A stretch of 64,000 nucleotides of DNA from Zygnema cylindricum (taxonomy: Eukaryota > Streptophyta > Zygnematophyceae > Zygnematales > Zygnemataceae), in NCBI GenBank assembly GCA_037447655.1, contig JBBHKE010001841.1, forward strand, positions 142,600-206,599, in the 5' to 3' direction. Positions 1,552-51,046 of this stretch are shown here, piece after piece. Below the pieces are notes generated by a model that was given only the letters and a program-made list of their open reading frames with translations, made no database searches and was not told the DNA's origin. Position 1 is the first letter of the stretch, and each line of letters opens with the position of its first letter. Both the position numbers and the translations under genes were made by a program.

Positions 1552-2500
1552 ATGGAGGACACAGAATTGCAGGTTATGGGCCCACCCTTTAGGGTGCCCA
1601 TCTTCAATGGATCTGGGTTCATCTATTGGGAAGCCATGATGACAGGGGCTTTGTGCGAATTACGATACTAGAGTATTATCAGTGGACAAGTGAAACGTCC
1701 ACCTCAGGGAAATCCACCAAGGTTTGGTGGAATAAAGCTTTTTGCAGCAACATCTGCTGCAGCAGAGGAGGCAGATGTTGGGGACAACACTGTGTCCAAA
1801 AAGGGGAAAGAGAAGGAGACACCTCTTGCTCCTATTGCCACGACACCCAGAGCGACGACCTTGAATACCGCGGAGAACGATACCCAAATGTGGGAAGACA
1901 CCAACATGGCTGCAAAAAACTTTATTTTAAGACACCTCACTCAGGCTTTGGCAACCCCTCACCTTCACATTTACAAGGACGAAGAGTTGTGGGTGAGTTT
2001 GGTGGAGATCTTTAGAGGTGGTACTATTTAGGAGCTCCAGTTGGCTGAGCAAAAGTTAGGGAATTATACTTACAAAGGGGGAAAGATGTTAAACTATTGT
2101 AATGATCTCTCTTGTTTGTATATGGAGGTGGAGAGTGCCGAGTGGACAGGTACAATGAAGATGAAAGTTAAACCTCTCATCATGAAGTTACCCGACGAGT
2201 ATGAAAACATAGTGTACCGAGTAAAGGAGATGATTGGGAGTTCATGGAAGTGGAACACAGTGGTCCGGATGATACTTGTGCAAGAGGACACAATTGAGAA
2301 AAGGAGAGGGAGAAAGAGCATCCAAGCTCTAGCTACAGGAGCTAACCGATGGGGGAAGGATCCAAAGAAACTGTACAAAAGAGAGAGAGAGATCAGTCTG
2401 GAGGACCAAGGCCTACAAAGGGTCTTTGTCATTTTTGCAAAAAGTCGGGACACTTCATTGCAGATTGCGTCAAGTTGTGGGAGGTGAGGCTCTTAGAGAA
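1552..2500 (+). pseudogene. gag of element A, broken
   Basis: The frame opens at ATG 1552 within the LTR (MEDTELQ), continues through the primer site (VMGPP) into a capsid-like region with F-N-G and I-Y-W motifs, and hits a TAG about 40 codons in. The frame resumes at 1690-2031, then after another TAG at 2041-2487, where Y-C-N-D-L and L-P-D-E-Y-E-N are typical of this copia gag (UBN2-like). A frameshift near 2350-2400 moves it into the frame carrying the zinc knuckle. No functional capsid protein can be made. Confidence 0.85.
1572..1586 (+). other. Primer-binding site of A (internal initiator tRNA-Met type)
   Basis: GGTTATGGGCCCACC directly follows the LTR end CA. It is complementary to the anticodon-stem region of initiator tRNA-Met, the half-tRNA priming known for Drosophila copia, and not to the tRNA 3' end. 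It also encodes gag residues V-M-G-P because the reading frame started upstream in the LTR. Confidence 0.75.
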
Positions 2501-3266
2501 CCGTGGGGGGGGGACTTTTGGAGGGAAGAAGAAAGAACTTGTGGTCACAAAAGTAAAAAGAGAGAGCGAGGATAAATCCTATAATGAGGATGATGGGGAG
2601 CTTCTTCTTGACGAAAGTCTAAAGGAGAAGGAGATTCCTTGGAGACAGAAGTGTGCTCTTAGAGTAATTCGAGAAGCTCCACAAGAAGGATGGATCATTG
2701 AACCAGGTGCATCCATGCATATGTGTCGTGATAAACACCTCTTCACTAAGCTAAGAAAGATCCCTACAGTAGAAATAGAGTATGGGGATGGGAGAGTGGT
2801 TATTACAAATCTAGTGAGGTCGGTAGATTTGAAGGTCTTAGTGGAGGGTAAGACTTCTATACTCACCTACTCAGATGTTCTCTACTTTCCTCAACTAAGT
2901 AAAAATCTTGTCTTTACGACTGTGTTAGATGACAAAGATTTTGATACCTTCACTAGAAAGGGAGTCTTTAAAGCTAACTATTGGGATGAAGTCTACTTCA
3001 CGGCAGATAAGGGTAGCCAAGGAATTTTTGGGCTTAAACTAAATAATGAAAAGAAGAATGCTTATTATGTTGATGTTCCAAAGTTGATGGTTTGGCATAA
3101 GCGGTTGGGGCATCTGCATTTTGACAGGCTGAGGGAAGTGAAGAAGCTTGGCGTAGTAGAAGGCATACAATTTGAGGATAATAAAATGGTGGATGAATGT
3201 AGTGATTGTGCCCAAGATAAGGCTCACAGACTTCTTTTTCCCAAAGCCGCCATATATAGGGGTTAA
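2349..3266 (+). pseudogene. Nucleocapsid, protease and pre-integrase region of A
   Basis: An open frame of about 305 codons contains the CCHC knuckle CHFCKKSGHFIADC, then a basic linker, then the aspartic protease motif, then the pre-integrase zinc domain (WHKRLGH ... CSDCAQDK). The catalytic D-T-G-A of the protease reads E-P-G-A here, so the active-site aspartate is gone even though the frame is open. The frame stops at 3266, just before the integrase core. Confidence 0.85.
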
Positions 3267-5537: not shown

Positions 5538-5853
5538 TGAAACTTTGAGACCTCCATTGGCCCTCAGAGTAGGCAGATCCAAAAAGAAGCTAATCTAGGT
5601 AGTGCCGACTCCAACTTGATATAAACCCAAATAACTGACCCCTTGATAGTAAAAACCCCAATACAGCTTCACCCCTGTGAAAGAATACTTTCTGTGTGCT
5701 CAGTTCCACCACAGAATGCAAAGGTAGAATATGAGATTTGGACACATTCACCCACTTTGACTTTCCCTTATAATAAGTGCCACTTTGGCACGCAAAGACA
5801 CTTACCGACTACACCCCTTTTTAGCCTGGACTCCCATGAGTCCGCAGCAAAAA

Positions 5854-14880: not shown

Positions 14881-15154
14881 AGGTAACTTTCAGAAAGGAT
14901 GGAGACACCACGGACCTCCCATTTCCCAAAAACCTCCGAATGAAACTGTTGCATTTTCAGCGAAGGATACGGAATTGAAGAAGAAAAAGACCAAGGAAAC
15001 GACACCTGATGTGATCAATTTTCCAAAAACTGATGTCAAAGAGTTCTTTCCTCTTGCTAAACTCGACATGATGGAAGGAGAAAAGGACCTCAGATGGATA
15101 ATGGATTCCGGCAGCTCTTCACACATGTGTTGGAACAAGTTTCTACGTTTGTAG
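14858..15154 (+). pseudogene. Protease region of B
   Basis: Open stretch with K-rich linker and the active-site motif RWIMDSGSSSHMCWNK, catalytic aspartate intact. Compared with elements I and L, sequence between the protease motif and the pre-integrase domain is deleted at about 15140, so the enzyme is C-terminally truncated. Confidence 0.85.
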
Positions 15155-16200
15155 CTGAAAGCAAAGGCTTTGAGGTTCTCCAGCAAAATGGCAAGAAAAT
15201 AGTGAGCAAGAATGGAAGAGTAGCTCTAGTAGGAATTAGAGGCCCAAACTTTTTGTACCGCTTGGACCTGGCTAATAAAATTAATTTTGCGTACTATAGT
15301 GTTCTATGTGATAATTTTTTGTGGCATAAAAGGCTTAGTCATGTGCATCATGAGAGACTTACTAAGTTGATAAAGCACGATATGATAGAGGGAGTCAAGC
15401 TTGGTCAACAAGAGTCTCATGTGTGTGATGGTTGTGCTCTGGGAAAGCTTCACAAGCTTCCCCTATCACAAGTTTCTGATCACCGAGCCACAGATGTTCT
15501 TGGTATTATTCACTCTGATGTTTTCGGCCCTTCCAAAGTTCCCTCTCTTGGTAGCAGCCACTTCTTTGTCACCTTTACAGACGATTACTCCCGGTATAGT
15601 CGCCTATACTTCATGAAGGAGAAGAGAGAAGTCTTCACTCACTTTAAACACTACAAAATTTGGGCGGAGAAACTTCACGGCAAATCTATTCTTGCTTTGC
15701 GGACAGATAATAGTGTAGAGTATGTATCTCATGCCTTTGCTGATTTTTTGAAAGAAAATGGCATCTCTCGTTAATTTACTGCTGCGTACAGACCGGAGCA
15801 AAATGGTGTTGCCGAGAGACTTAATCAGACTTTGACTGAATGTGCTCGATTTATGATGGCCGATAAAGGTGTGGATCCAAAGTTTTGGGGGGAAGCTTTT
15901 CATTGTGCTTCCTACATCAGAAATAGAGTGAAAACCCGAGCTGTTAGGGGTAAGACACCTTATGAAGTGTGGACAGGCAAAAAGCCAAATGTCAGTCATT
16001 TTAGAGTTTTTGGTAGCAAATGTTTTATCTTGGATAATCTTCCTAATTGGAAGCTTAGTCCAAAATCTATACCTGGTGTCTTTTAAGGGTATGATGATGA
16101 ATCTGCAAGCTATAGAGTGTATAATCCTCAGAGAGGATGTCTTCAGACAGCCAGGAATTTTCAGATTAAAGAAAAAAGTCAATCTGTTGATGTTTTTAGC
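15094..16200 (+). pseudogene. Pre-integrase and integrase of B
   Basis: Frame 15094-15774 has the zinc domain (WHKRLSHVHHERL ... CDGCALGK) and the integrase core with F-T-D-D-Y-S-R-Y and R-T-D-N-S-V-E-Y; the second G of the usual N-G-G-E is V here. A single TAA at 15774 interrupts before P-E-Q-N-G-V-A-E-R-L-N-Q-T, which carries the glutamate; 15832-16086 continues to N-W-K-L. All three catalytic acidic residues are still encoded. Confidence 0.88.
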
Positions 16201-16241
16201 ATGGATGCAGCTTAAAGGAATGAGAAAATACGTATATCATT

Positions 16242-17365
16242 GTGGAGCAGATACCTTTTACTCCATCCTCTTCTACTTCTTCTACCTCTCTCCCAAATGC
16301 CTCAAGGCCGTATAATACCCCTTTCGGAGCTGCTCTTTCTACTGATGCTCCTCCCAATACACGCCGTGTGCGACAAGCTAGGGAACCAACAGTTCCTGCG
16401 TCACATTTTCCGAGGGGAAGAAGGCAAAACAACCGCCTTCGAGGCGACCGAGTGGAGAGTGCTTTTTTTGCAAGGACAAGGGAGCAGTTTACTATTCATG
16501 TAGCTTTTTCCATTCGTGAAAAGATCATTGGATCTCGACAGCTAATGAAGAGATAAAGTCAATTATGGAAGCCCAAACTTGGGAACTTGTGGAGCTCCCA
16601 CCGAACCGGAAAGCTATCGGTTGTAAGTGGGTCTTCAAATTAAAATTGAATCCTGATAATATAATTGAGAGATATAAAGCTAGACTGGTGGCTAAGGGAT
16701 TTAGCCAAAACGAGGGAATTGATTATGAAGAGACCTTCTCTCCTGTGGTTCGCTTTCCTACTGTTAGAGTTTTGCTATCTCTTGCTGCAATAGAGGATAT
16801 GGAATTGCATCAGATGGATGTTAAGACGACTTTCTTGCATGGTGATTTGGAGGAAGTAATTTATATGAAGCAGCCAGAGATGTATGCAGAAAAAGGGAAA
16901 GAAAATCTGGTCTGTAAACTGTTGAAGTCCCTGTATGGTCTGAAACAGGCTCCGAGACAATGGAACCTGAAATTAGATGAGTTTTTAACCAATCTTGGCT
17001 TTACCAGGATCAGTTCAGATCACTTAGTCTATGTATTGCAAGGTGATGATGGAGTGATTTATGTGTCATTTTATGTAGATGATTTGCTACTGATTAGCAA
17101 ATCTATCAATGAGATTAATAAAATAAAATCAGCTATGAATTCCCAGTTTGAAATGAAAGACTTGTGTGAGGCTAAGTATATTATAGGAATTCAAGTAGAA
17201 AGAGACACGATTTTTTTTTTTTATTTAACTCAAAAAGAAGCAATCAAGAACATGTTAGAAAAGTTTGGCATATCAGATGCAAAGGGCAGTGCCACTCCTA
17301 TAGAATTCAGACAGAAATTGGAGGGTACGAAACGGATGGTGGTGTTTTGGATGATGATTTCTTAG
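16242..17365 (+). pseudogene. Linker and reverse transcriptase of B
   Basis: Linker 16242-16556, then after one stop an almost intact RVT_2 domain at 16565-17365 (266 codons): [37 protein letters not shown] and YVDDLLLISK with both palm aspartates. A T-run at 17212-17222 gives three phenylalanines and may be slippage. A frameshift at about 17335 ends the frame. Confidence 0.9.
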
Positions 17366-19318: not shown

Positions 19319-20300
19319 GGTTATGGACCCACCCTCTAGGATGCCCGTATTTCATGGATCAACCTTTTTGTATTGGGAAATGATGGTGGAGGAAGAACTA
19401 TCTGAGAAGCATCTATGGGGCATATTGTCTGGACAAATTCGATGCCCACCTCCAACTGGGTTTGGAGGGACACGTTTTTCTGGCACCTCCGCCTCTTCCG
19501 TTGGTAGAACAGCTGCCACCATCACCAAGGATGAAGAAGAGGAAGGAGAGAAGATTTTCATAGAAGGAGAAAGGGGAGGAGATGCAACTCTAGTGACACC
19601 ATTGCCGAAGGCGATACCGGCTGCAACACCACCAGCAAGGGGCGACAAGGGTTCAGACCGAAAGATCAAAGTATGAAAAGTGGAACTACAAAGACAAGGT
19701 TGCTAAGCTCTTAATTCTTAAAAGTGTAGCAAAAGGCATTGCCATTCCCCTTATGCATGTCAAATCTTCATCTCAGATTTGGATATCACTAGTTAACAAA
19801 TACAAGAGTGGATTATTGCAGCAGCAACAGTTGGCAGAAAATAAGATTGCAGCTTATACTTATAAGGGAGGAAGTATGGATAATTATTGCAATGATTTAC
19901 AAGCATTATTTGAAGAGCTAGAGAGTGCAGGTAACTCATGGTCTGAGAGACAAAGAGTGAACACATTAATGAAGAAACTACCTGAAGTGTATGAGAATAT
20001 TATTCACTGATTGCGAACATAGGAGATAGCAATTAAAATTGGGATGACACAGTGGGAATGATTTTAGTGAAAGAAAGGACCATAGAGCTTAGGAGAGGGA
20101 GTCCAAGTGTTCAAGCATTGTCTGCAGGAGCTGATTGGCGGAAGCGTGATGAGGAGAGAGGGAAAAATCCCTATCGAAACTTTGGTGGAAGAGGATAAGG
20201 AGGTGGCAGATTTGATAGACAGGGGAGAGGAACTTCTCGAGGAGGATTTTGTCACTTCTGCAAGAAACCGGGACACTATATGGCAGATTGTGTCAAACTT
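19319..20300 (+). pseudogene. gag of C with primer-binding site, broken
   Basis: The primer site GGTTATGGACCCACC (19319-19333) supplies the first usable ATG (19323) and leads to P-P-S-R-M-P-V-F-H-G, L-Y-W-E-M and I-R-C-P-P. Frame 19323-19676 ends at a TGA; 19753-20010 carries Y-C-N-D-L and L-P-E-V-Y-E-N-I. The knuckle CHFCKKPGHYMADC is encoded near 20245-20295 in the frame leading into the next segment. Confidence 0.85.
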
Positions 20301-21074
20301 GCAGATCTTCGACTGAAAGATGGTCAAGGAACCTCAAGGCACGGAGGAAAGAAAAAGGCTTTCATGACTCAAGTTTTTGATGAGAAAGTGGAAGAAAAAA
20401 CTGAACTAGAAGAGGAGCTTGAGGAGCTTCTTCTTAATATGAAAAACACTGAAAAACATGCCGACATTCCATGGAGACAAAAGTGTGTTTTCGGAGTTAA
20501 GAGGGATCTACTCGAGGATGGGTGGATCATGCACTCAGGAGCTTCAATGCGTATGTGCAAAGATAAGCGATGGTTCACTAAACTGAGAAAGATCCCAACA
20601 ATTGAGATAGAGTACGGAGATGGTAGAGTAGAAACCACAAGTCTTGTTGGAACTGTTGACTTGAAGGTTCTAGTTGATGGAAAGGCCTCAATTGTAACAC
20701 TCTCAGACGTTCTTTACATTCCACAACTTAGCCATAACCTAGTTTCAATAGCTCTCCTAGATGAAACGGAGTTTGAAACAAGAACTAAGAAAGGAATCTT
20801 CACAGCAAGCTCTGATAATGAGGTTTATTTCATCGCTGAGAAGGGCAATCAAGGAATGTTCAGAATTTTTCTTTGCAATGAAAAGAGTGTTCTCTACTCG
20901 TCTGCAAGTGAGATGATGCTTTGGCACAAAAGGTTGGGGCATGTGCATCTAGATAGATTAAAGAAAATGAAGAAAAAGGGAATAATGAAGGGTATTACTT
21001 TTGAGGATGATGAGACCTTTGATGATTGTAGTGGATGCGCCCAAGGGAAGATTCATAGACTTCCATTTCTATGA
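20280..21074 (+). pseudogene. Protease and pre-integrase region of C
   Basis: Open for 264 codons. The protease motif is W-I-M-H-S-G-A-S, so the catalytic aspartate is replaced by histidine. The zinc domain W-H-K-R-L-G-H ... C-S-G-C-A-Q-G-K is intact. Stop at 21072. Confidence 0.87.
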
Positions 21075-21900
21075 GCAACCACATTTAGGAGAGAGAGGGT
21101 ATTGGATCTATTTCACAATGATGTTGAGGACCTGCTAGGTATGCTTCACATAGGGGGAAGAGATGGATGTTAACCATCACAGATGATTGGTCTAGATACA
21201 CGAAGGTATATTTTCTCAAACATAAGTCAAAGGTATTAAGATGTTTCAAAGAGTATAAAGTATGGAGTGAAAAGCTACATGAAACCTCAATAAAAGAGAT
21301 AAAAAGTGATAATGGGAAAGAATACATCTCAAGGGAACTTGAAGAATGTCTTAAAGAAGAAGGAATTCATCATGAGAAAATTGTTCTCAATAATCTTGAA
21401 CAAAATGAAGTAGCAGAAAGAGTGAATAGAACTTTAGGAGATATGCCCAAAAGTATTTTAAGTGATAAGAGGATAGGGCTGCAGTTTTGGGTTGAGTCTA
21501 TGAACTATGCTAATTTAATCAAAAAAAGAGTCCTAACTTCAGCAAATAAAGAGTAAACTCCGTATGAGAGGTGGACAAGAAGAAAGCCTGATTTGTCTAG
21601 TTTGAGAGTGTTCGGAAGTCAAGTTTACAGTTTGGATTCCGATAAGACTAAATGGAAGTTAGAGTGAAGAGGGAAACCAGGATATCTTGTAGGATATGAT
21701 GAGAGCACAAAAGGATACCGGGTGTATGACTTGAAAAAAAAAGATATAATTTTGGTAAAACACATAGTGGTGATGAATGAAGTGAAGTCCATTGATCCAT
21801 TCAAATATAATAAAGAAGTCAAAATCAGATTTGTAACGGATCAGTTTTCTGACTTTGAATCTGAAAATGAAGAGAAAGAAGATGGATAAAAAGAAAAATC
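21075..21900 (+). pseudogene. Integrase of C
   Basis: Frame 21167-21556 keeps T-D-D-W-S-R-Y, K-S-D-N-G-K-E-Y and L-E-Q-N-E-V-A-E-R-V-N-R-T, that is all three acidic catalytic residues. One TAA at 21554, then W-T-R-R-K-P, R-V-F-G-S-Q-V-Y and K-G-Y-R-V-Y-D with one more stop. Confidence 0.87.
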
Positions 21901-21928
21901 TACAGATGAACCAAAGGAGAAGGAGGAA

Positions 21929-23183
21929 ATGACAAAATCCGAGGCAACGCCACAATACGAAGTGGAAATCAATAAGGAACTTGATGAGACACCGGAATTG
22001 GAAGACGAGGAGCTAAAAATTGTCCTAAACGAAACCCAAGGATGCCTTCCATACTGGCGTCCGATTTTGAAGGGGGGAGAAGAAGTAGTAAACAACTTCA
22101 AGAAAGACAAGAAAATAACCAACTCACAAAGATGTCTCACCCAGATGAACCTCAGACATACTTAGAGGCCATAAACACCCCAGAAAGTAGCCGGTGGATC
22201 AATACTATAAATGGAGAAATGGCCTCTATCATGGAAGCCAATACATGGGAGTTGGTAGATTCTCCACTGGATTGAAAACCGATCGGATGTAAGTGGGTTT
22301 TTAAACTTAAATTAAACTTGGATAATACCATTGAGATGTACAAAGCTAGGTTAGTTGCAAAAGGGTATACTCAAAAAGACGGGATAGACTACGAAGAAAC
22401 CTTGCACCAGTAGTTAGATTCCTTTCTGTTAGAATGATCTTATGTTTAGCCGCAGCGGAGGATATGGAAATACACCAAATGGATATTAAAACAACATTTT
22501 TGCACGAAGTGTTAGAAGAAGAAATTTACATGAGGCAACCGGAAGGATTCGTGGAAAGTGGGGAAGAAAACAAGGTTTGCAAACTGCTAAAATCACTCTA
22601 TGGGCTTAAGCAAGCCCCGCGACAATGGAATATAAAGCTAGACGAATTTTTGACGGGTTTTGGGTATACCAGAATTAGTTCAAATCAGTCAATATTTTTA
22701 TTTGAGGATGAGAATGGAGTGATATTTATTGCATTTTATGTGGATGATTTGTTAGTCCTTAGCAATTCCTTAGATAAGACTAACAAACTAAAACGGGATC
22801 TTAAAAACCACTTTGACATGAAAGATCTCGGCGAAGCGAAACATATTTTGGGAATTCAGATGGAGAGAGATAGAGGGAATAGGATTATAAGACTCACTCA
22901 GAAAAAGGTAATCGGTAATATGCTAGAAAAATTTCAGATGGAAAAGTCAAACGGATGTACTACTCCCATGGATCTGAAGAAAGTGTCTCAGGGGAGTGAC
23001 GAGAGACGAATAATGACCATTAATGATGAGATGGATGAAATAGAAAGAAAATTTATGGAAAATATCCCTTATCGGCAGATTGTAGGCAGTTTAATCTATT
23101 TTATGAACTGTACCCGTCCGGATATAGCTGCAGCTGTAGGTGTCCTTAGTAGAAGTCTAAATGAACCAAAAATGAGAGACTAG
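21929..23183 (+). pseudogene. Linker and reverse transcriptase of C
   Basis: Acidic linker, then RVT_2: [22 protein letters not shown] with a stop and a shift near 22275-22420. The frame 22434-23183 (249 codons) is open through H-Q-M-D-I-K-T-T-F-L-H, L-Y-G-L-K-Q-A-P-R-Q-W, YVDDLLVLSN and into the RNase H connection. Both palm aspartates are present. Confidence 0.9.
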
Positions 23184-30712: not shown

Positions 30713-30975
30713 TGAAATTCTATGGGCTCCATTGCCCACAGAATTCGCAGATCCAAAAGAAGCTAATCTAGATAGTGCCGACTCCAAGTTTATATAAACC
30801 CAAATGAATGATCCCTTGACAATTAGAACCCCAATACACCTTCACCCCTGTGAAGAGAAGACCTTGTGTGTGCTCAGTTCTGTTGACGTACGTAAAACGT
30901 GCTGATCGATACCCAGAATTGTGGTAAAATCCACACTAAAAACTATATAAAATTGGACCCACCAGCATAACATCT

Positions 30976-31048
30976 GAGCTGGTGGTACAGTGGTTAGTAC
31001 ATTCACAGCTAAAGTGAAAGGTCCCAGGTTCAAATCCTGGCCGGCTCA
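30976..31048 (+). tRNA. tRNA-like cloverleaf in the 5' LTR of the TRIM (probably not a normal host tRNA)
   Basis: All 73 nt fit a standard tRNA: acceptor GAGCTGG/CCGGCTC (7 pairs, one G-T), 4-bp D stem GTAC/GTAC, anticodon stem TTCAC/GTGAA, 5-nt variable loop, T stem CCAGG/CCTGG, discriminator A. Box A TGGTACAGTGG and box B GGTTCAAATCC match the Pol III consensus. The anticodon loop is AGCTAAA: read by position the anticodon would be CTA, but position 33 is G and not the near-universal T, so decoding is doubtful. Confidence 0.6.
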
Positions 31049-31264
31049 TGAATCCCTTTATTGGGATCATCCATTCTATCCCCCGATTCTAGGAATCTTA
31101 ACATGGTATCAAAGCCAGGGGGACTAGGTTTACATGGACAATTATGACCAGCTACCTCTCAAGGGGGGGTGTTGACGTACGTAAAACGTGCTGATCGATA
31201 CCCGGAATTGTGGTAAAATCCACACTAAAACCTATATAAAATTGGACCCACCAGCATAACATCT

Positions 31265-31337
31265 GAGCTGGTGGTACAGTGGTTAGTACATTCACAGCTA
31301 AAGTGAAAGGTCCAAGGTTCAAATATTGGCCGGCTCA
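31265..31337 (+). other. tRNA-like copy in the 3' LTR of the TRIM
   Basis: Same 73-nt segment with box A intact but T arm and box B damaged (GGTTCAAATAT). Confidence 0.6.
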
Positions 31338-32062
31338 TCAATCCCTTTATTGGGATCGTCCATTCTATCCCCCGATTCTAGGAATCTTAACAAGTTCCAC
31401 CACAGAATGCAAAGCTTGAATATGTGTTTTGGACAATACTCCCCACTTTGACTTTCCCACTGAATAAGTGCCACCCTGGCACACAAAGACTCTGACCGAC
31501 TACACCCATGTGTATCTTGGACTTCCCTGAGTCCGCAGCAAAAAGAATCACCGAATTTGCTCACTCGAGCATTAAGTTTTGGCTGGCCAAAGATGGCCTA
31601 TAAATACAAAAGGTCACCTGGAGAGAGGCGCCTCAAATACGCTAAGTCCCTTAACTCCTACTCATAACTATCTACTACTCTACCCTAGGCCAGTCAAAAG
31701 AGTGTATAGTACAAGAAGGTACAGTGGCCGATTGTACTTCTTGTACGGCCATTGTACTACATGGCCTTTTGGTTGACACTTGTCAACTTGGGAGCCATCG
31801 TTCCTCCTCCCATCTTTCCTGGCGTCCAATGATGTGTAGCCACGTGGCAAAGCGCGCCGCGCTGTCTGGAAGCCGCCGAAGATTCATTCGGGTTTGGCGG
31901 GGGCGACGAAAGCCGTCCGATCATATATTTTACACGGTTAGATTCGCGTCCGCGAGCGCTGTTTGACTATAGATGTCGTTTCGTCAATTTTGGTCTGTTT
32001 AAGTCAAAGTGACGTTTCAATAAGACTTTAATTAATAACCGAACCATATACGTGTATCGTTT

Positions 32063-33287: not shown

Positions 33288-34313
33288 CTAAGTTTCCAAA
33301 CAAGGGCATTCCTCCATATAATGACCCGGTTCCCTACAAAAGAAGCAAACCCCCTTTTTCAAAGCTCCCCTTTCTTTTACTCTCCCTCTCTTTCCACCAA
33401 AGTTCCGATAAGGTTTACCTTTGTCTTTCTTCCTCTCATCACGCTTTCGCTCGTCACCGCCGTTCCTCTCATCACGCTTCCGCCAATCACCGCCAGCTGT
33501 AAATGCAGTCACCTTGTCACTTCCCCTACGAAGCTCCAAAGTGCTTTCCCTCACAAGAATTATCTCCATGGTAAAGCTCCAAGTCCATAAGGAGCCATCC
33601 ATTGCCTGCATACGATAAATGATGTTTTCGTACTCATCTGGGAGTTTCATGAGTAATGTATTAATCTTTCTCTCCTCAGATTCTACATACCCCGCACTAG
33701 CAAGCTCGACATATAACGCAGCAATTTCTTTACAAAACACTATCATGTTACCGCTTTTATAAACATAGGCCTCTATTTCTTGTTTTACTAACTGCTGCCT
33801 CTGAATAGTCTCACTCTTATAAATCTGACTTAGTGTTTCCCAGATTTTCGAAAACTTGGTTAGACTTAAAAGAGTGATAGCTATGGACTTAGACACATAT
33901 CTAAGTATGAGATCTTTTGCTATAGTGTTTTTATACTCCCAAATTTTACTATCATTTTTTTCAGTTTTACTTATAACCCCTCTAAGTGGAGCTGTGGCGG
34001 AGAGCATAGCTCCCCTCACCATAAGTGTCCTTTTATCCTTCTCCCCTTTTCCCCCTTCCATGACAATATTTTTCCCTTCACCTTCCGTTGCATCTAAAAT
34101 ACAGTTGGTTTTATGGGAAGCCCCTAATGATTCTCCGTAGTGAGTTCCTCCAAATCCCGGTGGCCGACACCTCACTTGTCCCGAAACAATTCCCCATAAG
34201 TGCTTCTCGAAAAGCAATCCCTCCATTGTAAACTCCCAATAAGTGAAGTCTGCTCCATCGAACATAGGCACCCTAGATGGTGGGCCCATAACCTGAAATT
34301 CTATGGGCTCCAT
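33288..34313 (-). CDS. gag of F, intact
   Basis: 341 codons from the ATG inside the 5' LTR (MEPIEFQ, then VMGPP from the primer site) to TAG. It has the capsid-like region (M-F-D-G-A-D-F-T-Y-W-E, K-I-W-E-T-L, L-P-D-E-Y-E-N-I-I-Y), a lysine/arginine-rich stretch and one CCHC knuckle CFFCREPGHYMEEC. It would form the particle and bind element RNA. It is the only complete gag of this lineage here; an in-frame ATG 24 bases upstream also exists. Confidence 0.85.
   Translation of the reverse strand: MEPIEFQVMGPPSRVPMFDGADFTYWEFTMEGLLFEKHLWGIVSGQVRCRPPGFGGTHYGESLGASHKTNCILDATEGEGKNIVMEGGKGEKDKRTLMVRGAMLSATAPLRGVISKTEKNDSKIWEYKNTIAKDLILRYVSKSIAITLLSLTKFSKIWETLSQIYKSETIQRQQLVKQEIEAYVYKSGNMIVFCKEIAALYVELASAGYVESEERKINTLLMKLPDEYENIIYRMQAMDGSLWTWSFTMEIILVRESTLELRRGSDKVTAFTAGGDWRKRDERNGGDERKRDERKKDKGKPYRNFGGKRGRVKERGALKKGVCFFCREPGHYMEECPCLET
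34279..34293 (-). other. Primer-binding site of F
   Basis: GGTTATGGGCCCACC on the minus strand, identical to that of A. Confidence 0.75.
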
Positions 34314-35417
34314 TGCCCACAGAATTCGCAGATCCAAAAGAAGCTAATCTAGATAGTGCCGAATTCAAGTTGATATAAACCCAAATGAATGATCCCTTGA
34401 CAATTAGAACCCCAATACACCTTCACCCCTGTGAAAAGAAGACCTTCGGTGTGCTCAGTTCCACCACAGAATGCAAAGCTTGAATATGTGTTTTGGACAA
34501 TATTCCCCACTTTGAATTTCCCACTTTATAAGTGCCACCCTGGCACGCAAAGACTCTGATTGACCACACCCCTGTGTAGCTTGGACTCCCCTGAGTCCGC
34601 AGTAAAAAGAATCACTGAATTTGCTCACTCGAGCATTAAGTTATGGCTGGCCAAAGATGACCTTTATAGTTACAAGCTCTCTTAGAGAGAGGTACCTAAA
34701 TCTCACTAAGTCTTGGTCTGCCTACTCACGACTACCTACTACTAAACCCTAGTCCAATAGGAACACTTTATAGTACAAGAAGGTACGATGGGCGATGTAC
34801 TTATTGTACGACCATTGTACGACATGGTCTACAAGGTGACATGTGCCAAATCAGGAGCCATGGTTCCTCCTCCCATCTTCTCCGGTATCAAATAATGTGG
34901 CGCCACGTGGCACCGCGTGACGCTATCCCCAAAGGCCACCGAAAGCTTATTGCGGGTGGCGGCTGTTATGGTGGCCGTCCGCTCAATTGTATTTATACGG
35001 ATTCGATTCGCTTCCATGCATCAATTGATTAATGCGCGTTTTCGTTAGTCTGCTGCGAATTAGCCCTTTGAATCAATAGCTAAATATGCGTGAAACGTCT
35101 AACCTGTATCGTTTCGATAGTAACTAAATGGATAAGGCGTTGGTCATTAGTAGCCTACAGACCCCGGTTCAAACCCAGCCGGCGACAGTATTTTGGTAAA
35201 ACTAGTAAAATACTTTCTAATTCATTCTGCCTCCTTCTAAATAATGCAACAACAATGGCGTGCCTTTGGTCCTCTCTTTCTCTCTCTTTACATTTTGGTC
35301 CTTTCTTTCTTTCTCTTTACATTCTAACTAAAATATAGAAGTGAACTATTAGTCACCTCTTTTCAACACTCTATTTATTTTTCCGATACAGACCTAGAAA
35401 ATACATAAATTTCAACA
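34294..35417 (-). repeat. 5' LTR of F
   Basis: 1124 bp. G-box 34903-34910, GTAC cluster 34773-34820, promoter palindrome 34649-34662 (stem with one G-T pair), tRNA-like module 35115-35180 on the plus strand. It preserves the empty TRIM site. Confidence 0.9.
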
Positions 35418-35591: not shown

Positions 35592-36509
35592 TGTTGTTTT
35601 TGAAATGTTAGTTTCGTACTTACGCCACATTTTGTGCGCACGCGACGGTTCGTGCGTAGATTATTACCGGAAATATTGTGGTGGTACAAATGGAGGTTCG
35701 AATGGATTTGTGGATTGGGGGAGTAATTGTACAATTGAAGTTAAAGGATTGTATTTTGATAATGTGGTATCAAGTGGACCGTACGTATATGATGTCGGTT
35801 CATGTCGTGGTTTCGTCCTCAAGTGACTAATCAAGTTGATACTCAGTACGCGGATTTTACGGAAGCGTCGATGTAAATATTTGGTTGAACATTGATGTGT
35901 CTTTTTGTGAATTAATTATTAGTGTAGATTTACTCACTTTGACATACCTTGAAGTATTCACGTATACCGACATTAATAGAGGTAGCTGGTAGATAGCGTA
36001 CCGCTGATATGCCTCCGTACATTTAGCAGTAAGCTCTTGTATATATTTGTAGGACTTCGTCATTTTAGGACATAGGAACTTTTTGGACCAAAAACTGTTT
36101 ATGGTTATTTTTGGTAATTTTATCTGAGGATTACTCTCAGATCTGCTTGCGGAATTATCTGAAACTCTGCATGTTTGTTCCTATTTATATTTTTAATATT
36201 GTCACAGATTTTCAGGTCTATTTTGTGCCTGGTCTGTGTTTTACGTCATTGTGAAGTTAGCCTGTCTGATCAAAGTTCTGGCAGACTGTTTTTCTGCAAC
36301 TTTGACTAGATGATGTGATCAATCTGTTTATTATTTTTGTCTGAAACTTTGTGAGGTCATTTTATATCCTAGATAATATCTGTAAATGTAGTTTCAGCTT
36401 GTTTTGTTTATTCTGTTGAATTCTGTGTGTATCCAAACTACGCTGTTTTTAGGGTAGTATGTGGTGCTTCCTAGGGTGAATCCATGGTTAGAAATGGCTA
36501 TGGACAACA
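35592..36509 (+). repeat. 5' LTR of G
   Basis: Contains the gag ATG at 36484, 26 bases before the LTR end. No tRNA-like module seen. Confidence 0.92.
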
Positions 36510-37113
36510 GGTTATGGGCCCACGCCCATGGCTACCCATATTGGATGAATCGTACTTACCCATATTTAATGGAACTGAATATTATTGTTGGAGGAGTATT
36601 ATGAAGAGCTACTTCAAGTTGAGGGAGCTTATGGATGTGGTGGATGGGATATGTGTCGAAACATCGGCTGAATGGGAGGAGAAAAACCTGGAGTGCTTGA
36701 GGATTATCAAGCTATCTATGACTAAGGAATTTGTAATGATGTACCTTGATGTGAAGAGTGCAGCTGAATTGTGGAAGTGTTTAGAATGCACTTATCAAAA
36801 GACTTCTGTGTATCATTGGATGATTAGTGCTACAAAAATATTTGAATATAAATATGCTGGAGGTAGCATGTTGAAATATTGCCTTAGTTTGCAAAGATTG
36901 TTTGCAGAAAATGATATTGCAGGAGAAAACTTTACAAATGTTCAAAAGGTTCTCTTGTTAATGAAAGGATTACCTAAAGAATATAAGTGTGCTTTAGATA
37001 GATTAAAACAAGTTGATAAAAAGGATTGGAGCTTACCTTTAGCAATCAGATTTGTTTTAGATGAAGAAGATGATAAAGAGGCTTTAAAGAATAGGGGGAA
37101 TTTCAGGGTGTGA
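36484..37113 (+). CDS. gag of G, ORF1
   Basis: 209 codons starting in the LTR (MVRNGYGQQ), through primer site GGTTATGGGCCCACG (36510-36524, read V-M-G-P) and into a typical copia capsid-like region: F-N-G-T-E-Y-Y-C-W, S-Y-F-K-L, A-A-E-L-W-K-C-L, L-P-K-E-Y-K. No stops. It ends at TGA 37111 and overlaps ORF2 by 19 bases in the -1 frame, close to a run of five G (37094-37098). Confidence 0.85.
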   Translation: MVRNGYGQQVMGPRPWLPILDESYLPIFNGTEYYCWRSIMKSYFKLRELMDVVDGICVETSAEWEEKNLECLRIIKLSMTKEFVMMYLDVKSAAELWKCLECTYQKTSVYHWMISATKIFEYKYAGGSMLKYCLSLQRLFAENDIAGENFTNVQKVLLLMKGLPKEYKCALDRLKQVDKKDWSLPLAIRFVLDEEDDKEALKNRGNFRV

Positions 37114-49833: not shown

Positions 49834-51046
49834 ATGAACAAGATTCGGTTGACTAATTTGATGTACCAGATCAACTGGCAAAGGAAAAACAAAAATATGT
49901 CATTTTTTTACCATGCACAAGGAGTTTACTTTCCACCAGCAAGTGGGACATCACTTACTTCAGTTCCCTTGGTAAATTCACTAGATGCTTCCCCAAAAGA
50001 TCCAACTCAAGCGGAACGAACTGTTACCCACTCAGAACTAGAACAAAACACGGCTCGGACCAGGCAGTCAAAATAAAGACTGCCAACAATTTCAGCCTCA
50101 GAATTTCCGAGGGAAGGAGATCAAACAACCGTCTGTAAGCAAGCTCTCACTTTGCTTTTTTTGCAGCTATAGAGGAGCGTCTAACAATTCAGGAGGCCTT
50201 ATCATCACCTGAGTGAAATCACTGGATCGAGGCAGCAAACAAGGAAATGAAGTCTATTATGGAGGCACAGACATGGGAGTTGGTGGATCTTCCTCCGGGC
50301 AAAAAAAACCATCGGCAGCAAATGGGTATTCAAGGTGAAGTTGAACCCGGACAACACCATTGAAAGGTATTAGGCCAGACTAGTGGCCAAAGGGTATAAT
50401 CAAAAAGAAGGTATTTATTTTGAAAAAGCCTTCTCTCCGATTGTTAGATTTTCTGCCTGTCAAAATATTGCTAAGTCTAGCGGCTATAGAGAATATAGAA
50501 ATACATCAAATGGATGTTAATACTGTTTTTTTGCATATAAAGGTAGAAGAGACCATTTACATGAAACAACTTGATATGTATGTAGAAAAAAGAAAGGAAG
50601 AATTAGTGTGTAAACTGATGAAATCTTTGTATGGGCTGAAACAAGCCCCTAGATAATGGAATTTGAAGTTCAGTGAGTTTTTGACTGGGCTAGATTTTAA
50701 GAGAACTAGCTCAGATCATTTTGTACATGTTATACAAAGGAAGGATGGGATATTTTACAAAGCTGTTTATGTGGATGACTTATTATTAATAAGTAAGGTA
50801 ATTGATGCAATAAACCACATTAAAGGGACTTTAAGGTCTACGTTTGAGATGAAAGACCTCAGCGAGGCCAAATATATCTTAGGTATACAAGTAGAAAGAG
50901 ACATAAAGAAAAAGCTGATTATGTTCACTCAGAAAGAAGTAATAGGTAATATGCTTGAAAAATTTGAAATGAAAGATGTAAAAGGATTTGTAACGCCTAT
51001 GGAATCCAGAAAAAATTGGAAAGAAGTGACTCAGATTAAGGCATAA
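49834..51046 (+). pseudogene. Linker and reverse transcriptase of I
   Basis: T-W-E-L-V-D-L-P-P, shift, 50420-50656 ([20 protein letters not shown] then TAA for Q) and 50663-51046 (YVDDLLLISK, L-S-E-A-K-Y-I-L-G-I). Palm aspartates retained. Confidence 0.87.

Follow-up and report, generated by a model that had tools for sequence, protein, structure and literature searches.

A TRIM with a tRNA-like cloverleaf in each LTR and its related families in Zygnema cylindricum

The element and its insertion site

The window analysed here, a stretch of 64,000 nucleotides from Zygnema cylindricum, holds at positions 30881-31392 a 512-bp TRIM that carries a tRNA-like cloverleaf inside each LTR. The 5' LTR (30881-31103) and the 3' LTR (31170-31392; both on the plus strand, as are the other oriented features of the window given below) were found by direct-repeat detection. 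Each is 223 bp long, the pair is 97% identical and the ends read TG...CA. The LTRs enclose an internal part of 66 bp, which begins with the primer-binding site TGGTATCAAAGCCAGG (31104-31119) and finishes with the polypurine tract CTCAAGGGGGGG (31158-31169), both read from the sequence and from the unit measurements. The primer-binding site differs at one position from the complement of the 3' terminus of initiator tRNA-Met in plants. The target-site duplication AGTTC was read from the sequence on the left (30876-30880) and on the right (31393-31397) of the element, and the left copy is additionally supported by two empty sites in paralogous sequence, in which the joined flanks recur exactly, with 0 mismatches and without interruption (5694-5723 and 34449-34478). 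This confirms the anatomy given in the initial annotation, including both empty sites. The element is inserted in repeated sequence near Copia-type pieces, and pieces of this type with gag, integrase and RT domains are found in the window at 2346-3263, 15061-17362, 20199-23180, 33291-34343 and 36475-37110.

The tRNA-like sequence of the 5' LTR (30976-31048) scores 56.6 bits against the Rfam tRNA family (RF00005; cut-off 29, E 1.5e-9) and is the sole Rfam match in the 64-kb window at gathering cut-offs; thus, no 5S rRNA-like sequence was found in the window LTRs. ARAGORN called the tRNA-like copies of both LTRs and nothing further across the window. The cloverleaf had been described as folding at every stem, which holds for the 5' copy, but in the 3' copy (about 31265-31337) two of the five T-stem pairs are broken by inspection and the score falls below the Rfam cut-off. 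Within the 5' copy, a box A-like sequence, TGGTACAGTGG (30983-30993), and a box B-like sequence, GGTTCAAATCC (31027-31037), were read from the sequence, as was the TATA-like element TATATAAAA (30944-30952), which starts 32 nt 5' of the tRNA-like sequence. A stretch AACATC lies beside the tRNA-like sequence in the LTR of this family, hereafter family 1. The window element contains no TTTT; as 33% of shuffles likewise have none, avoidance of TTTT was not significant and was dropped.

The anticodon loop reads AGCTAAA, with the formal anticodon CTA and a G at position 33, exactly as initially annotated. Because anticodon position 36 varies among subfamilies, with A, T, G and C all seen, the tRNA-like sequence is probably not used in decoding. 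ARAGORN labels the LTR copies tRNA-Pyl or tRNA-Lys. No parent tRNA is named, since among the fetched tRNAs, a set excluding valine and initiator-methionine genes, the best has no more than 49, 50 and 55 bases in common with the tRNA-like sequences of families 1, 2 and 3, respectively.

Some further tRNA observations were made in the same genome. The tRNA family search over 352.8 Mb gave 24,620 first-look candidates, of which 63 were scored, and 30 fetched sequences resemble ordinary tRNA genes; the number of first-look candidates may reflect many tRNA-like repeats in the genome. At L019:2261-2332 there is a lysine-like tRNA with the formal anticodon CTA, called tRNA-Pyl by ARAGORN, which could be a suppressor or a pseudogene; its start is 760 bp away from that of a tRNA-Lys(ctt). 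A contig that also contains TRIM copies (C2443) carries a tRNA-Phe at 50363-50436 (L009), presumably resembling plant mitochondrial trnF and possibly representing mitochondrial DNA in the nucleus.

Copies of family 1

The searched assembly comprises 352.8 Mb in 2689 contigs. An ORF at L034:53-1063 encodes ribosomal protein L4, whose best hit by E-value (85% identity) is a JGI protein labelled Mesen1, from the zygnematophyte Mesotaenium. Next come four unnamed proteins at 85-86%, then ferns, liverworts and mosses at about 81%, Klebsormidium at 79% and angiosperms at mostly 73-77%. This places the host among the streptophytes, probably with the zygnematophyte algae. An angiosperm host was rejected on this result and because the Copia RT hits, at least 120, are mostly about 50% identical; a rust fungus, considered for the suppressor anticodon known from Helenus, was rejected on the L4 result as well. 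Searches of the assembly for rbcL (PF00016) and chitin synthase gave 0 matches each, the latter with a control that also gave no signal, and had no bearing on the host. With the whole element as query, at least 47 matches were obtained, with 40 of the 806 first-look candidates scored. These matches are covered by 40 loci, each with LTR and internal matches, and some of the loci are tandem arrays with a common internal part (L039, L044, L066 and L068). A 42-nt core of the tRNA-like sequence occurs 89 times with up to three mismatches, versus 0 occurrences of the reversed control. The tRNA-like sequence thus runs through a large family, which contradicts the possibility, raised in the initial annotation, of a one-off passenger. 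LTR-LTR identity in 42 LTR-internal-LTR units ranges from 87.3 to 100%, and some copies are young, judged by values that reach 99-100%. The 5-bp target-site duplications of the 42 units are perfect in 22, have one mismatch in four and two or more in 16; the last group includes array units (L039, L044, L068) and ends trimmed by the aligner.

For the alignment, 132 LTR copies that each cover at least 200 of the 223 bp were used, and 29 shorter pieces were left out. TATAWA is present at LTR positions 56-80 in 112 of these copies, a box A-like pattern in 107 and the box B pattern GGTTCRANNC in 80. More than five of the 73 tRNA columns are deleted in four of the 132 copies, a number to be read in light of the retrieval, which favoured tRNA-bearing copies and would under-sample tRNA-less ones because the query sequences included the tRNA. 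Both LTRs carry the tRNA-like sequence, with at most five of the 73 columns missing, in 40 of the 42 units, while L048 and L071 have a larger deletion in one LTR. The 5' LTR of L075 retains its first 67 bases, which are followed by unrelated A+T-rich DNA up to the internal part, so that its tRNA is gone; the 3' LTR of L075 is intact.

Four LTRs contain a partial tandem duplication of the tRNA region, with the tRNA cores spaced 62 bp apart in L066:1290-1574 and in L082:955-1239, 146 bp in L080:893-1246 and 151 bp in L081:914-1280. Close beside one of these LTRs, at L080:1265-1418, a 77-bp unit is repeated twice (95%).

Families 2 and 3

At least three families of tRNA-bearing LTR elements exist in the genome, and their LTRs measure 223, 229 and 235 bp. 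Rfam gave 26 tRNA hits in 20 further loci, of which 23 correspond to the tRNA-like sequence in LTRs of families 1 and 2 and three to that of family 3; at four of the 20 loci (L008, L083, L088, L089) no tRNA of family 1 or 2 scores up to the cut-off. Family 2 was recognized in L087 and L083, where a tRNA-like sequence of the same kind is located in an LTR with different flanks. The L087 LTR query gave at least 87 matches when 40 of 968 candidates were scored, and many of these have the same score and lie in tandem arrays. The family 2 element L136 consists of two identical 229-bp LTRs and a 57-bp internal part, flanked by the duplication CCGTG; its tRNA-like sequence has the loop AGCTGAA, followed by ATTTTCCC. 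Family 2 also has the motifs AATAAAT and CAACATC, and a TTTT follows one base 3' of its tRNA-like sequence.

Family 3 includes a solo LTR (L089:1593-1827) with the duplication GAACC, and a tRNA-Ala(ggc)-like sequence occupies the middle of this LTR (L089:1695-1767). More family 3 sequence is found in L086 and L081, where LTRs of this family stand head to head as a palindrome (L086:423-906 and 906-1190; L081:495-880), with arms of 167 nt (95% complementary) and 57 nt (100%) in L086 and of 54 nt (91%) in L081. At both loci the palindromes adjoin a family 1 LTR and an internal part with PBS- and PPT-like sequences, i.e. a chimeric or inverted element.

Conservation of the cloverleaf

Within family 1, U3, the tRNA part and U5 show 2.06, 2.32 and 1.75 rare changes per site and mean minor-letter frequencies of 0.084, 0.067 and 0.043, respectively. 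The share of copies that have the commonest 10-mer is 36% at box A and 57% at box B, compared with averages of 41% in U3 and 63% in U5, and other 10-mers are better kept than the windows of the two boxes. Because the tRNA part decays like its flanks and the boxes are not the best-kept windows, these values speak against special protection of the tRNA part after insertion, as expected for dead copies.

Pairing was then compared across copies and with shuffles. Seven loci contain a unit with an LTR identity of at least 99%; in six of them (L007, L046, L042, L053, L055 and L040) both LTRs have the full set of 21 stem pairs, and in the remaining one, the array L044, the number is 19 to 21. Among the 132 aligned copies, 105 have 19 or more of the 21 pairs. 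In a covariation set of 97 sequences (95 of family 1 and two of family 2), 93.5% of the stem cells are paired, and none of 500 shuffles reaches this value or the covariation score. A clean two-sided switch is seen at the D-stem pair 11-24, which among 130 readable copies is T-A in 68, C-G in 55, T-G in one and broken in six. Two-sided changes are nevertheless found in only three of the 21 pairs, with no excess over the shuffled mean of 3.8, and the 44 two-sided cells do not exceed the 45 of a control slid by +2. Compensatory change is thus seen at one D-stem pair, and because only three pairs are two-sided and the slid control equals the count, the stem covariation would rather reflect one event than a pervasive process. 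On a tree of U3 and U5, the T-A/C-G haplotype requires 14 changes versus a shuffled mean of 40.6, with only two forced by well supported branches; recombination of this haplotype is plausible, though not proven.

A different picture emerges between families. The tRNA part of L136, a young element, matches that of the young family 1 LTRs L007, L046 and L055 at 69 of 72 positions without gaps, whereas the flanks match at 66/81 to 70/89 positions in U3, with 20-38 gap columns, and at 35/49 to 36/48 in U5. For L046, the flanks give 67/90 with 20 gap columns in U3 and 36/48 with 11 gap columns in U5 (Fisher p 6e-5); the corresponding p values for L007 and L055 are 3e-4 and 5e-4. The window copy shares 65 of 72 tRNA positions with L136 (Fisher p 0.015). 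Hence, decay of the tRNA relative to its flanks, which the initial annotation had proposed to compare, is about equal within family 1 but much slower between families 1 and 2. Young members of both families have lost one D-loop base and have a G at position 30; L086, L087 and L090 show neither change, and L083 has the G with the base kept. Either selection or exchange by recombination could account for the better-kept tRNA across the two families. Taken from comparison of the copies, four points speak for maintenance of the cloverleaf in active lineages: the pairing in young loci, pair 11-24, family 2 and family 3.

Transcription and mobility

We consider it probable that the element is a TRIM of the Helenus type, in which a Pol III promoter inside R drives transcription and Copia-type enzymes with initiator tRNA-Met priming provide movement. 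The tRNA-like sequence of the 5' LTR would recruit TFIIIC through box A and box B, and RNA polymerase III would start a few bases 5' of it, near AACATC, aided by the A+T-rich TATA-like element at -32. The transcript would read through U5 and the internal part into the 3' LTR, reverse transcription would proceed from the initiator-tRNA-Met primer, and insertion would be carried out by enzymes supplied in trans, most likely from a Copia element as the presumed partner. As in SINEs, the promoter would be carried along in each cycle because it is located inside the transcribed (R) region. As the window element lacks TTTT, Pol III could pass through it, but this lack is not significant against shuffles. 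In family 2, the TTTT may stop Pol III ahead of the internal part and, unless leaky, argues against simple read-through.

The TATA-like element would be equally suited to Pol II. It is conceivable, though unlikely, that the element is transcribed by Pol II in the ordinary way from TATATAAAA at -32 and that the tRNA-like sequence is tolerated cargo in R, as would agree with the presence of TATAWA in 112 of 132 LTR copies, the similar decay of tRNA part and flanks within family 1 and the TTTT of family 2. Plant tRNA genes are, however, also described with TATA and CAA motifs, and mere cargo fits poorly with a tRNA part that families 1 and 2 share more closely than either flank, with a stem pair changed on both sides and with a third family in the same genome that has a different tRNA in mid-LTR. 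Another reading is that the cloverleaf is kept as a folded RNA in addition to its role as promoter DNA: cleavage by RNase P or RNase Z could define the ends of the transcript, or the fold could serve export or be recognized by proteins of the partner. Position 24 of the switched D-stem pair lies outside box A, and pairing reaches 93.3% of the cells in the acceptor stem and 97.1% in the anticodon stem, neither of which is a promoter box; yet the clean switch concerns a single pair, possibly through one event spread by descent or recombination, and neither the shuffled mean nor the slid control is exceeded, which makes this reading quite improbable.

Short, non-coding tRNA-derived SINEs share the internal tRNA-type promoter with the window element, which differs from them by its LTRs, PBS, PPT and 5-bp duplications, features of LTR-type and not of LINE-type movement. 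A separate SINE nested in the LTR would make two elements instead of one, and an insertion of this kind has been proposed by Kojima as an origin of Helenus (PMC10886601). For the elements described here this is very improbable, because both LTRs carry the tRNA-like sequence in 40 of 42 units, the 5-bp duplications flank the whole LTR-internal-LTR unit, and no SINE body or tail was recognized between the tRNA and the LTR end; a SINE may nevertheless be their remote origin.

Beyond the probable Pol III promoter in R, we raise as a tentative and rather doubtful extension that the cloverleaf is a module under RNA-level selection, which is swapped between LTR families as a promoter cassette; such swapping might be a general way in which LTR elements driven by Pol III evolve among the algae related to land plants. 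This idea stems from the derived-looking tRNA changes common to young members of families 1 and 2 despite their diverged flanks, and from the other tRNA of family 3.

Relation to known elements

The initial annotation knew of no named TRIM family with a tRNA in its LTRs, which was wrong: TRIMs with a tRNA-derived LTR sequence were named Helenus in 2024 by Kojima, who also uses the wording 'TRIMp3' (PMC10886601). Helenus was described from fungi and animals, with Selaginella moellendorffii as the sole plant, and its members in plants and fungi make 5-bp duplications; one genome can contain several families, tRNAs of the CTA 'suppressor' type occur in two rust fungi and tandem arrays in a fish family; its Pol III transcription was called unvalidated and multiple origins were proposed (PMC10886601). 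In agreement with the Helenus definition of a TRIM, the window element has two LTRs, is non-coding and, at 512 bp, stays below 1000 bp, and its PBS and PPT adjoin the LTRs. The elements described here thus resemble Helenus as short, gene-less LTR elements that have a PBS, a PPT and 5-bp duplications and whose LTRs each contain a tRNA-like sequence with both boxes, and also in the several families per genome, the CTA-type anticodon and the tandem arrays. The Selaginella family differs in having LTRs of 120 bp and an internal part of 85 bp, whereas the LTRs of the three families described here are 223, 229 and 235 bp long. The assignment to Helenus is structural by definition, and the likeness to the Selaginella family rests on architecture.

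The parallel to Cassandra drawn in the initial annotation is sound: the element is a TRIM with a tRNA cloverleaf per LTR, the counterpart of the 5S of Cassandra. According to its description, Cassandra is likewise a TRIM with a Pol III gene-like sequence per LTR and forms LTR-internal tandem arrays, but its LTRs carry 5S rRNA instead of a tRNA, and Pol III promoters and terminators are stated for it, whereas the window element has no TTTT (PMC7215508). A survey of 48 plant genomes reports that TRIMs occur in Selaginella as well as in two green algae and one red alga but not in Physcomitrella, with 5S rRNA confined to Cassandra (PMC4717578). Among the papers listed in our literature search, no further plant report of tRNA-bearing TRIMs beyond Selaginella was apparent.

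The interpretation given in the initial annotation is therefore partly supported. This kind of element is already known as Helenus; what appears to be new is the host lineage, together with limited evidence, drawn from sequence comparison, for maintenance or exchange of the tRNA across families. For tRNA annotation, the LTR copies called tRNA-Pyl or tRNA-Lys are a warning, as they would inflate tRNA counts. The elements place Helenus in a streptophyte host far from Selaginella and provide a young, high-copy, multi-family system that is suited to testing whether Pol III drives such elements.
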